A DNA stretch of 64,000 nt from positions 1-64,000 of the IMG/VR virus record IMGVR_UViG_3300028392_000030; one strand, written 5' to 3'. Positions 48,873 to 51,904 of the stretch are shown here, piece by piece. The stretch is from a virus. A program made the position numbers and the translations under genes. Position 1 is the first letter of the stretch. Each line of letters begins with the position of its first letter. The notes under the pieces were generated by a model, which worked only from the letters and a program-made list of their open reading frames with translations, did not search any database and had not been told where the DNA came from.

Positions 48873-49139
48873 ATGTCAAAAGTCGATACTACTTTTCTCT
48901 TTCCTGCTACGGCAGAAAGCGTAATTACATGGGGCAGATCATTGACTGATACTGAATCAGCATTAGTCCAGTCCAAAAAAGGTGCAATGTTTGCGGCTGG
49001 AAATTTTGGGTCTTTTCCAGCCACAGTCAATGGCGTCAGCACATTTGCATGGGTGTCGTCGGATGCAGCGAACGAATTTGTAGCATTTTGCAATACGTTC
49101 ACTCCGCCGCCGGAATCGGCCGTAGTTAATAGTCTGTAA
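48873..49139 (+). CDS. Small protein with FTPPPES motif (pair member 2)
   Basis: 88 residues. The ribosome site AAAGGAGTTTTA nearly repeats that of the previous gene. It begins SKVDTTFLFPATAESVITWG and contains NTFTPPPES near the end. Paralogue of its neighbour; possibly a virion or regulatory small protein, function unknown. Confidence 0.5.
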   Translation: MSKVDTTFLFPATAESVITWGRSLTDTESALVQSKKGAMFAAGNFGSFPATVNGVSTFAWVSSDAANEFVAFCNTFTPPPESAVVNSL

Positions 49140-49186
49140 AGAATTGTTGTAATCCCTTCCGAGTGAAGGCATTCTGGACGGGGGTG

Positions 49187-49663
49187 TTAGACCCTGCGGA
49201 CCATAAATCCACCATTGGTTACACTACCTCTCAAACAAGCATTTCCAAAGTTGTTAGGATTATAGCCTCGGTCTACACACCACTGGCGTAATCCTTCAAC
49301 TGTTTCCACAGTCCCATCTGGGTGAGTTATTTCGTATAGTTTGCCCTGCCAAGTTTTGCCTCTATTGGCACATACTACTTTCATCTTCTTACTGGCTAAT
49401 TCTCGTTGTATCGGATCCTTCCAACGAAGGTTAGACCTTGCGGCACCTTTTCTACCACCTTCGATCATTGACTGTTTGGCAGCATCAAAGTTAGCATCAA
49501 GTTTGCTTAATCCTTGCCAGGCAACATAATCTTGCCAGTTACCGTGTTGTTCGTATAACAAACGATGTGCTTCAGCATGTTGGTCTACAGTGAGATCAAC
49601 AAGATTACTTGGATCATCTGTGCCTCCTAAATATTTTGGGACAATGTGGTGTTTGTGTAGCAT
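49187..49663 (-). CDS. HNH homing-type endonuclease
   Basis: 158 residues from ATG 49663; the upstream in-frame extension to 49711 is unlikely because a late-like box lies immediately before 49663. HKHHIVPKYLGGTDDPSNLVDLTVDQHAEAHRLL (residues 3-36) carries the HNH zinc-nuclease motif, and the C-terminal region (DGTVETVEGLRQWCVDRGYNPNNFGNACLRG, about 120-150) is a NUMOD-type DNA-recognition helix. It lies opposite to its neighbours between plus-strand genes, typical of a free-standing homing endonuclease. Confidence 0.88.
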   Translation of the reverse strand: MLHKHHIVPKYLGGTDDPSNLVDLTVDQHAEAHRLLYEQHGNWQDYVAWQGLSKLDANFDAAKQSMIEGGRKGAARSNLRWKDPIQRELASKKMKVVCANRGKTWQGKLYEITHPDGTVETVEGLRQWCVDRGYNPNNFGNACLRGSVTNGGFMVRRV

Positions 49664-49668
49664 AATAT

Positions 49669-49675
49669 TATTTAG
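49669..49675 (-). promoter_or_regulatory. Candidate late-promoter box CTAAATA (minus strand)
   Basis: CTAAATA on the minus strand, six bases before the HNH start codon. Confidence 0.4.
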
Positions 49676-49694
49676 TCGAAACCACAGTAAATGG

Positions 49695-49723
49695 TTGACA
49701 AGATTCGACAACTATGCTATACT
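49695..49723 (+). promoter_or_regulatory. Sigma70-type promoter of the 49799 gene
   Basis: TTGACA (49695-49700), 17-bp spacer, TATACT (49718-49723). A 75-base leader precedes the start at 49799; the same transcript could run into the tmRNA. Confidence 0.75.
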
Positions 49724-49798
49724 GTTAGCATATTGATATTATTTCGATATATTTTTAATCCGCCCTTACTGCTAGGGTATTAACCAAAGGAAATTATT

Positions 49799-50122
49799 AT
49801 GGCAAGAAAACACCTATATACTTGGAACAATGGCGAAGACAAAGAGCTGTTTGAGTCTTTGAAACTGATATTAGGGCCCGTGAAAAATTGGAAAGGACAA
49901 ACTTATAAAAGAACTCTTTCGTTTTTAGCGGAAACCAAATATGGAAATTCTAACACAGACATTGGAGCACTTGAAATGAGAGTTGCTTTCTTAACTAGTA
50001 AACAAAAGGCATCTTATTATAGAACTCGTGGCAGAGAAAATGTATTCAAACAAGTTGTAGTTGGTGCTGTGGCGTCGGGTGTAGCAAGTTATAAGGACCT
50101 AGCGCCAAGATTAAATGGGTAA
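49799..50122 (+). CDS. Small basic hypothetical protein upstream of tmRNA
   Basis: 107 residues; AAAGGAAA precedes ATG. Helical and basic (WKGQTYKRTLSFLAETKYG, LTSKQKASYYRTRGRENVFKQVV). It ends just before the acceptor part of the tmRNA, and no promoter is visible between them. No family recognised. Confidence 0.5.
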   Translation: MARKHLYTWNNGEDKELFESLKLILGPVKNWKGQTYKRTLSFLAETKYGNSNTDIGALEMRVAFLTSKQKASYYRTRGRENVFKQVVVGAVASGVASYKDLAPRLNG

Positions 50123-50124
50123 AT

Positions 50125-50478
50125 AAAAGTATTGCTGTAAAGCCCGTAAGGGAAGAAGCAAAGAGAAAAGTGTTCTGGACCCGGGTTCGACTCCCGGCAT
50201 CTCCACCTAAGTGTATGGGGTATATTTAGGTGGGGATGACTTGGTTTTCGACAGGGCAAAGAGTAACAGAGTGGACAGCACGGTAGGCGATGACCGTAAA
50301 TCAAGCAAATCAAGTAAATGCAAAAGCATCTACAGGCGAAGTAACTGTTTCTGGTAAGAACGTCAAGTTCTCTGCTCGCACAGTGAAAGCCGAATCTTTC
50401 GCAGTTTAATCGCCGCGATAGGGCAGGAAATGCCTCGTAACAGAAACTACCAGAACCCGCTTCGGCGGGTCTCTTTTC
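50125..50478 (+). ncRNA. ssrA: Circularly permuted (two-piece) tmRNA
   Basis: The acceptor piece comes first: T-arm CCGGG-TTCGACT-CCCGG, then CATCTCC and discriminator A (to 50205). After about 25 bases comes the coding piece from GGGGATG (50232), with tmRNA-typical GGTTTTCGACAGG. GGGGATG pairs with CATCTCC, and the pairing continues through CACCTAA/TTAGGTG, closing the precursor loop. Helix 2 forms between TGTTCTG (50171-50177) and CAGGGCA (50252-50258). A PK1-like stem ACGGT/ACCGT lies at 50280-50297. The candidate tag runs from GCA 50320 to TAA 50407-50409 and ends KAESFAV. TTCTGGTA pairs with TACCAGAA around the tag. CCA is not encoded (CCT). The 5' end is approximate. Confidence 0.88.
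50455..50478 (+). terminator. Rho-independent terminator of the tmRNA
   Basis: ACCCGC-TTCG-GCGGGT hairpin followed by CTCTTTTC. Confidence 0.8.
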
Positions 50479-50521
50479 GACTGTTTGAGTGGATAAAAAT
50501 TACTGTGTATCAGTAAAACCA

Positions 50522-50528
50522 CTAAATA
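50522..50528 (+). promoter_or_regulatory. Candidate late-promoter box CTAAATA
   Basis: CTAAATA 43 bases before the start at 50571, with AAGGA between. Confidence 0.4.
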
Positions 50529-50570
50529 ATATGTTGGGCACACGTCCACATTCTTATAAGGAAAAACTAA

Positions 50571-51119
50571 ATGAAGAAAATCTTCGCAATCTTGTCTTTG
50601 GCTGTATCAGGTTTGGCCGTTGCTGGCGACAGCGTGACCCTAGAAAGTCAACACATCAACAACGTTACTGGAAACGCACAACAGGTATATCTGTTAGGTG
50701 TTAAGAAAGAAATCAATCAAAACTTTGCCGGTGACGTGCTTATCAGTAATGCTGTAACCGACAACACCAATGCCTTGAGCACACGCATCGAAACAGGTGG
50801 CACTGTTACTGCACCGTTGTATGGTATTGTAAACGGCTACACTCGTGTTGCATTGGGACAAAAGTATAGCAATACTGCCAACTTTACATACTACTCAATC
50901 GAGCCTGGAGTTAGTGTTCCATTTGGTCCGGTGACAGCCAAAGTGGGTTGGCGCACTCGTACTGCTGTTGACAGCGGCAACAACGACCAAACACACACCA
51001 TGCGCTATACATTGGCTTATGCAGTGACTAAAGTTGATACTGTTGCTGTAAGATATGATCGTGTCAATGGCGATAACGATCAAAAGATCTGGACCGTTAA
51101 TTACACACGCGGTTTCTAA
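50571..51119 (+). CDS. Small outer-membrane beta-barrel protein
   Basis: 182 residues. Signal peptide MKKIFAILSLAVSGLAVAG with cleavage about residue 19. The mature part alternates polar and hydrophobic residues in about eight strands (YSIEPGVSVPFGPVTAKVGW, MRYTLAYAVTKVDTVAVRY) and ends NYTRGF, with the terminal Phe used by the BAM complex. It is bounded by a late-like box and a strong terminator, so it is a single-gene unit. Possible roles are changing the host surface or blocking superinfection; both are inference. Confidence 0.65.
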   Translation: MKKIFAILSLAVSGLAVAGDSVTLESQHINNVTGNAQQVYLLGVKKEINQNFAGDVLISNAVTDNTNALSTRIETGGTVTAPLYGIVNGYTRVALGQKYSNTANFTYYSIEPGVSVPFGPVTAKVGWRTRTAVDSGNNDQTHTMRYTLAYAVTKVDTVAVRYDRVNGDNDQKIWTVNYTRGF

Positions 51120-51136
51120 AATTTAAAAATCTAACA

Positions 51137-51159
51137 AAAGGCTCTTCGGAGCCTTTTTT
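51137..51159 (+). terminator. Rho-independent terminator
   Basis: AAAGGCTC-TTCG-GAGCC followed by TTTTTT, 17 bases after the outer-membrane protein stop. Confidence 0.92.
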
Positions 51160-51181
51160 AATGATCAACGGAGTTAGCAGA

Positions 51182-51904
51182 ATGGCAAAATTAATAGTAT
51201 GCGGATGTAGTTTGAGTGCTGATAGCATTGACAGGCCAGGAACAGGCTATGGCCATCAAACAGCCAAGCGGTTGGGTTGGGACGTAGAGATACTGGCACG
51301 GCAAGGATGCAGTAACGGTGGTATCCGTATACAAATAGATGAAGCACTACGCCAACAGCCTGATTTTGTCATTGTGGCACCAACATTTTGTGATCGTATA
51401 GAGATTCCTGCTGCCACTGACTGTGGCTACGATAAAACAGCCGGTATTGATAATGTTAACTATGGCACAAATCCATATCGCATGATTTGTGAAAATATAA
51501 CTACGTTGGTTGGGAATTATAACAATCCATATCGCACAGGTGAACTAGATAAAAATACACAGGAGGCGATTCGACAATACATTAACCACATATACGATGT
51601 CAATTGGAAGCGACAGCAAGATGAATGGATCATGCGCGATGGCATTATGCAGTTGTTCTATTCTGGTATACCATTTTTGATTATCGCCGGCGAACTTTGG
51701 AATACCGGAAATATACGCCAAGCTATACCTAAAGTAGTAGACGATCGATACTTGACCCTTGACTACCAAGAAACACCTAATTATGCAATAACCAATTGGC
51801 CGTTTGAAAGCACAGACCCTGGATACCACGGTAGTCCGGCTGGTCAGGAATATTTGGCAGAAATCTATGCCGACAAGATACGCAATTGGCAATATGCCAG
51901 TTGA
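51182..51904 (+). CDS. SGNH-hydrolase-like protein (paralogue 7)
   Basis: 240 residues from ATG 51182, which has CGGAG upstream; the in-frame ATG 51161 touches the terminator. Block I CGCSLSAD (Ser9), then GCSNGGIR, IVAPTFCDRIEI and TDPGYHGSPAGQEYL with the terminal Asp-His. The most diverged of the set, as W-x-S-G is replaced by APTF. Confidence 0.55.
   Translation: MAKLIVCGCSLSADSIDRPGTGYGHQTAKRLGWDVEILARQGCSNGGIRIQIDEALRQQPDFVIVAPTFCDRIEIPAATDCGYDKTAGIDNVNYGTNPYRMICENITTLVGNYNNPYRTGELDKNTQEAIRQYINHIYDVNWKRQQDEWIMRDGIMQLFYSGIPFLIIAGELWNTGNIRQAIPKVVDDRYLTLDYQETPNYAITNWPFESTDPGYHGSPAGQEYLAEIYADKIRNWQYAS

Follow-up and report, generated by a model that had tools for sequence, protein, structure and literature searches.

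A permuted tmRNA gene with a 29-residue tag ending in AV, apparently mosaic, in a probable T4-like phage

The tag encoded by a tmRNA is usually short and ends in AA. We asked whether a plus-strand locus in a viral DNA encodes a genuine tmRNA in permuted (two-piece) form, where such a gene came from, and what it might do in infection. The DNA analysed, hereafter the window, is 64,000 nucleotides long and covers positions 1 to 64,000 of IMG/VR virus record IMGVR_UViG_3300028392_000030, a possibly incomplete record of 197,025 bp. An earlier note, made from the sequence alone, had placed a permuted tmRNA gene at 50125–50478 and read it as one captured by a T4-like phage from a bacterial host.

Of the 15 RNA genes that ARAGORN called in the window, 14 were tRNAs and the other was a permuted tmRNA (tmRNA*) at 50116–50500 on the plus strand. 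The gene was thus borne out, and its span proved wider than first drawn. A covariance-model search, one of the checks that the earlier note had proposed, did not reject the fold: Rfam model RF04321 (tmRNA_permuted) matched 50152–50409 at 98.5 bits (E = 6.3e-18) against a gathering score of 47. The beta_tmRNA model (RF01850) was matched barely above its cut-off (89.1 bits versus a gathering score of 84). The parts of the gene were as follows.

50171–50177 (+), 5′ strand of helix 2, TGTTCTG (Rfam and fold of 50170–50262)
50181–50197 (+), T-arm, CCGGG TTCGACT CCCGG (Rfam, parsing script and fold)
50198–50207 (+), 3′ acceptor strand CATCTCC (50198–50204) plus ACC
50208–50231 (+), intervening segment of 24 nt, part of a hairpin and too short for a gene
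50232–50238 (+), 5′ acceptor strand, GGGGATG (Rfam, parsing script and fold)
50239–50251 (+), D-loop equivalent, a base longer than its counterpart in the majority of parsed relatives
50252–50258 (+), 3′ strand of helix 2, CAGGGCA (Rfam and fold of 50170–50262)
50320–50409 (+), tag frame AKASTGEVTVSGKNVKFSARTVKAESFAV, with resume codon GCA at 50320 and stop TAA at 50407–50409 (ARAGORN)
50349–50356 (+), candidate 5′ strand of helix 5, TTCTGGTA, complementary by inspection to TACCAGAA at 50448–50455

The T-arm and 3′ acceptor strand therefore lie 5′ of the 5′ acceptor strand and the tag, and the resume codon follows a conserved leader and opens a frame closed by a stop. We concluded that this is a genuine permuted tmRNA gene. 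All the pairings claimed from the sequence exist: GGGGATG with CATCTCC, the extension of the acceptor helix by CACCTAA with TTAGGTG, and the seven pairs of helix 2, which joins both pieces. Folded alone, the region 50170–50262 (z = −4.4, −41.6 kcal/mol) formed helix 2, the T-arm and a 19-bp helix in which the acceptor runs without a break into the intervening segment; none of 200 shuffled sequences reached that stability. When all 385 nt of the gene were folded for minimum energy (z = −3.3) by a method that allows no pseudoknots, the T-arm and the 19-bp helix were kept, but the 5′ strand of helix 2 paired elsewhere; the candidate helix 5 was also missing from this fold. Within the 7-bp acceptor stem, 50234 pairs with 50202 as G3.U70, a putative alanine identity element. 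The terminal A of CCA is not encoded, because ACC, which ends at 50207, is followed by T.

The phage itself is probably T4-like, and the affiliation given in the earlier note stands at that strength, because of its DNA polymerase and portal. The polymerase matched phrog_262 (E = 5e-195) and the portal phrog_213 (E = 5e-107), both families common to T4-type phages. The polymerase was closest to those of very large phages (identity up to 50.5%). By tblastn the portal matched 2466 phage records, and the 20 that were sampled included a Tequatrovirus, 29% identical across 41% of the query.

A two-piece tmRNA in a T4-like phage, which had been taken as a novelty, is already in print: the Methylophilales phage Melnitz is T4-like and carries a permuted gene, as does the phage studied here (PMC9004378). 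The same paper counts 53 two-piece forms among 133 distinct phage tmRNA structures, and permuted genes as such had been seen in phages before. The Melnitz gene lies downstream of a promoter and between terminators, and use of the host machinery was proposed for it; it differs from ours in grouping with the ssrA genes of alphaproteobacteria and in its link to a glutamine riboswitch (PMC9004378). A term search of the main text of that paper did not find the Melnitz tag sequence. Relative to the Rfam families RF04321 and RF01850, the window gene has the same order of parts, acceptor, T-arm, helix 2 and resume site, and it departs from them in its 29-residue tag ending in AV and in barely passing the beta_tmRNA cut-off. 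What is less ordinary is the long -AV tag, the mosaic make-up, and the small genes that lie between the halves in relatives.

The window tag is 29 amino acids long and ends in FAV, that is, in -AV rather than -AA, and so is not the usual short tag. A script sought the window leader and tag start in all collected loci and recovered 72 complete tags of 13–34 amino acids, representing 55 distinct genes, with 5 tags cut by contig ends and 3 unrelated matches left out. Simple text rules sorted the 55 genes into class I (n = 23, TGE-type, 28–29 amino acids), class II (n = 17, mostly TFEYF-type) and class III (n = 15, ADT-type, one of only 13 amino acids). All 23 distinct complete tags containing TGE end in -AV, an ending that the class I rule itself uses, and three of these are one codon shorter, at 28 residues. 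Tags without TGE end in AA in 30 of 32 cases, the exceptions being loci L242 and L274. A second IMG/VR contig (L094/L108) encodes a tag identical to the window's and may come from the same virus population.

Comparison of substitutions in the three classes gave graded results. The class III tag is clearly constrained (pN/pS of 0.27 and 0.25 in sets of 5 and 6 sequences, versus 1.19–5.67 in shifted frames), and class II shows weak constraint (0.64; 11 of 200 shuffles as low). For class I, pN/pS was 0.78 in frame versus 0.67 and 1.29 in the shifted frames, with 75 of 200 column shuffles as low, and did not demonstrate purifying constraint on the tag as a protein. A tblastn search with the window tag against 50,697 phage records found no match at E up to 10; one class III tag, searched against isolated phages, gave matches at E = 9 only. 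The tmRNA of Mesoplasma florum also has a long tag and in that respect resembles the window gene; it is bacterial, and its sequence is unrelated. That tag is recognised by the organism's own Lon protease, so tags can be matched to another protease (PMC9097571). Because ends of AAV or ASV signal degradation less strongly in E. coli than LAA or LVA do (PMC9097571), our leading guess is that an -AV end would lead to slower or different turnover of tagged peptides.

The tRNA-like part was compared across the same long-tag genes, 38 of the 55 being read by the parsing script. All 12 pairs of the acceptor and T-stem form in 38 of 38, a result favoured by design, as the script accepted only placements with a TTCRA T-loop and ACC and kept whichever scored best. 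These 38 genes have 12 different acceptor helices, and G3.U70 occurs in every one. The remaining 17 comprised 3 cut by contig ends and 14 others, of which 11 were read and either lacked ACC or differed in the sequence of the T- or D-loop. The D-loop spacing of the window gene was found in 6 of the 38, the window included; an assembly error is an unlikely source of the extra base, since five other parsed relatives have the same spacing and the stretch GGTTTTCGAC is common to the window and loci L451 and L453. A T-loop of the form GGCAGNN in place of TTCGA, seen in L195, L239 and L264, was considered as a novelty and rejected, being common (at least 120 stretches in the scan). It is not specific to a group either: of six loci tested for an alphaproteobacterial mark, three matched alpha_tmRNA (one partially) and three beta_tmRNA.

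Where did the gene come from? Its two parts matched different relatives, as listed here.

50155–50281 (+), tRNA-like module, matching L453 and L451 exactly at 50155–50207, 50231–50242 and 50243–50281
50279–50470 (+), mRNA-like module, 190 of 192 nt identical to L113, with differences at 50355 and 50412

The modules meet at 50279–50282. Across the tRNA-like module, L453 and L451 show no mismatch to the window and carry one extra base after 50242, yet they encode a different tag, ANAANDEVFALAA, and their intervening segment is different and longer. Conversely, L113 and other class I phage tmRNAs have the tag and mRNA-like module of the window, whereas their tRNA-like module differs and their intervening segment is longer; upstream of the equivalent of 50279, L113 shares with the window only one exact block of at least 12 nt (15 nt). 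Other genes are combined in similar ways: L450 has a tRNA-like module similar to the window's yet another tag, and L222 and L256 share a tRNA-like module and have similar intervening segments, with tags of class III and class II, respectively.

We then compared identities in the two modules across gene sets. Among 46 distinct long-tag phage genes, drawn from the 55 supplied, the identities were uncorrelated (r = 0.034, Mantel p = 0.31), although picking this set by its leader and the start of its tag leaves less room for the tag module to vary and may on its own depress r. They were correlated among 13 Burkholderiales genes (L290–L302; r = 0.725, p = 0.001), a small set from one order with the odd L303 left out. 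Sixty-five distinct genes from the viral scan for the permuted tRNA-like pattern gave r = 0.295 (p = 0.001), with variation limited on the side of the tRNA-like module by which they were picked. The window gene looks like a mosaic of two phage tmRNA versions joined at 50279–50282, and its immediate origin looks like phage–phage recombination, because each half finds its best matches in other viral contigs, where it has a different partner. This structure suggests that one cassette, for charging and ribosome entry, evolves separately from another that holds the tag.

The gene has its own apparent transcription signals, listed below.

49695–49723 (+), sigma-70-like promoter TTGACA-17-TATACT, 11 of 12 bases agreeing with the consensus and TG preceding the second hexamer
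49799–50122 (+), 107-aa ORF of no assigned function directly upstream of the tmRNA, with no PHROG and no PADLOC match
50455–50470 (+), intrinsic-terminator-like stem-loop followed by a T-rich tail

The promoter, judged by consensus match, is a possible source of the tmRNA transcript, and the 107-aa ORF is possibly co-transcribed with the tmRNA. Homologues of this ORF at 88% identity occur in L109 and L110, and no tmRNA was found in the fetched flanks of either. A homing endonuclease-like gene (phrog_655, E = 1.3e-17) occupies 49187–49711 on the minus strand, upstream of the tmRNA transcript. SmpB, SspB and ClpP were not found in the 197-kb record, an absence of little weight because the record may be incomplete.

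Taken together, we consider it likely, judging from the sequence, that the gene specifies a functional phage two-piece tmRNA that depends on its host, adds a 29-residue tag ending in FAV and is a mosaic of two phage tmRNAs. The RNA would be transcribed, probably with the small upstream gene, up to its own terminator. Host tRNA-processing enzymes would remove the 24-nt intervening segment, presumably as in known permuted tmRNAs; the host CCA enzyme would add the last A; and host AlaRS would charge the molecule through G3.U70. Host SmpB would then bring it to ribosomes stalled during infection, where translation would resume at GCA 50320 and append the phage-type tag, whose -AV end may leave tagged peptides less prone to host proteases or differently handled by them. 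The suggestion in the earlier note that such an RNA redirects ribosome rescue is plausible on this basis, and the long -AV tag makes it more specific: the phage tmRNA may mark rescued proteins differently from the host tag. Because a group of phages keeps a tag unlike the bacterial one in both length and ending, the question of why phages carry tmRNA becomes testable: are rescued peptides destroyed, spared or sent elsewhere?

Several other explanations were weighed. A pseudogene or chance resemblance is disfavoured by ARAGORN, Rfam, the fold of 50170–50262 and the pairing kept in relatives. That the gene is a non-functional remnant, for example of integration into a host ssrA, might be suggested by the fact that tmRNA genes are common integration sites (PMC9004378, PMC11590407); we hold this to be extremely unlikely, as the gene is complete with the claimed helices intact, relatives keep their pairing through compensatory changes, and a terminator-like site follows it. 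A phage RNA might instead act chiefly as a decoy that competes for SmpB and AlaRS and so dampens host trans-translation, its tag being incidental. In favour of such a role, phage DS6A is reported to have a tmRNA that is little more than a TLD, a kind of molecule reported to inhibit tmRNA (PMC11915505, PMC4131195), and the class I tag shows no clear coding constraint. Against it, the mRNA-like part is retained in full and its frame is open, the last two residues are the same in 23 of 23 distinct class I genes, and the sister class III tag is constrained as a protein at the pN/pS values given above. We regard a decoy as unlikely.

Very unlikely, in our judgement, is the origin favoured in the earlier note, namely a recent, direct capture of a betaproteobacterial host ssrA whose host job is unchanged. 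The match to the beta_tmRNA model speaks for it, and in our single scan of bacterial genomes the leader pattern of the window also occurred in Brackiella (Burkholderiales) and Pelistega, both of which have permuted tmRNAs. However, the tag of those two is the 10-residue ANDESYALAA, and 13 of the 14 permuted tmRNAs of Burkholderiales have tags of 10–11 residues ending in AA. No permuted tmRNA was matched in the third genome that has the leader pattern, a MAG labelled Mycoplasma, and the best matches to both halves of the window gene were other viral contigs. Recombination between phages thus remains our preferred account of the immediate origin.

In a scan of viral contigs, the permuted tRNA-like pattern was matched by 104 stretches, and ARAGORN called a permuted tmRNA in 102 of them, 21 with a tag of at least 20 residues and 7 with a tag not ending in AA. 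Among isolated phages, ARAGORN found permuted tmRNAs in Alcaligenes phage vB_Af_QDWS595 and Acinetobacter phage BUCT628. Searched against isolated phages, the DNA at 50100–50520 gave short T-arm matches in 117 records, none covering 80% among the 30 matches listed, and the DNA at 49000–51200 gave no match. The distribution of the gene is patchy: a tmRNA was found in one of three contigs carrying the upstream 107-aa ORF and, among 80 contigs that have a relative of the phosphoesterase lying nearby, in the fetched and often short flanks of 5, all with class I tags. Viral contigs L006, L022, L023, L047 and L058 encode long tags ending in ATV, ATA, VPA or VTA around an ANNIV core, which we take to be of cyanobacterial type.

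Long tags are not strictly phage-specific, as the fourteenth Burkholderiales gene, L303, has a tag of 28 residues. This gene (L303 and L447, genome G252) is a permuted tmRNA whose tag ends in NVA and which sits beside ordinary metabolic genes; five of seven neighbouring ORFs tested have Pfam matches, none to a phage family. A second match in G252, below the cut-off, may be its standard tmRNA. An extra permuted call in Burkholderiales, on L314, overlaps the standard tmRNA there and looks spurious.

The intervening segment of the window gene holds no gene, but segments in relatives differ. We parsed 217 distinct phage permuted genes from 320 loci and found segments of at least 60 nt in 105 of them. 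Ten of the 105 (L418, L344, L356, L345, L414, L374, L416, L222, L256 and L210) contain an ORF of 30 or more amino acids with a Shine–Dalgarno-like motif; these ten are not all independent, since L222 and L256 are homologues. In 50 approximate shuffles that moved two-base blocks, such ORFs averaged 0.78 and never exceeded 3. Under a stricter parser, 203 places were read in the 320 loci, with 117 loci unread. Homologues of two segment ORFs were found, in L385 (for L345) and L243 (for L210). Three homologous pairs show protein-level constraint, with pN/pS of 0.28 (L222/L256), 0.13 (L210/L243) and 0.07 (L345/L385) and at least 0.82 in shifted frames. The L414 segment encodes a DUF2061 protein over the full profile (PF09834, E = 3.5e-20); none of the eight other segment peptides searched matched a Pfam family, and none of ten matched a PHROG. 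In several segments the ribosome-binding motif sits at the 5′ end, and the 3′ end carries the stop codon.

These small genes between the halves suggest a gene-within-RNA arrangement, for which we found no description in the open-licence literature searched. The tmRNA database paper of 2025 reports that intervening segments can contain a tRNA gene or a repetitive element (PMC11915505), and in the parts of it consulted we found no mention of protein genes there. We suggest tentatively, as a possibility that may well prove wrong, that large aquatic phages run a modular, phage-adapted trans-translation in which tRNA-like and tag cassettes are freely swapped, tags are lengthened, one class with an -AV end changes the fate of rescued proteins, and the segment between the halves serves part of the family as a slot for small protein genes.

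Unusual tRNA-like parts were also seen. Loci L257 and L272 differ in their class I tags but share one aberrant tRNA-like region; its T-arm and D-loop depart from the usual form, and it may be decayed or specialised. Viral contigs L448, L454, L455 and L456 carry a standard one-piece tmRNA encoding ANNNLHFDEAARLAA, which shares with the window gene the T-arm (two loop bases free) and the 3′ acceptor strand.
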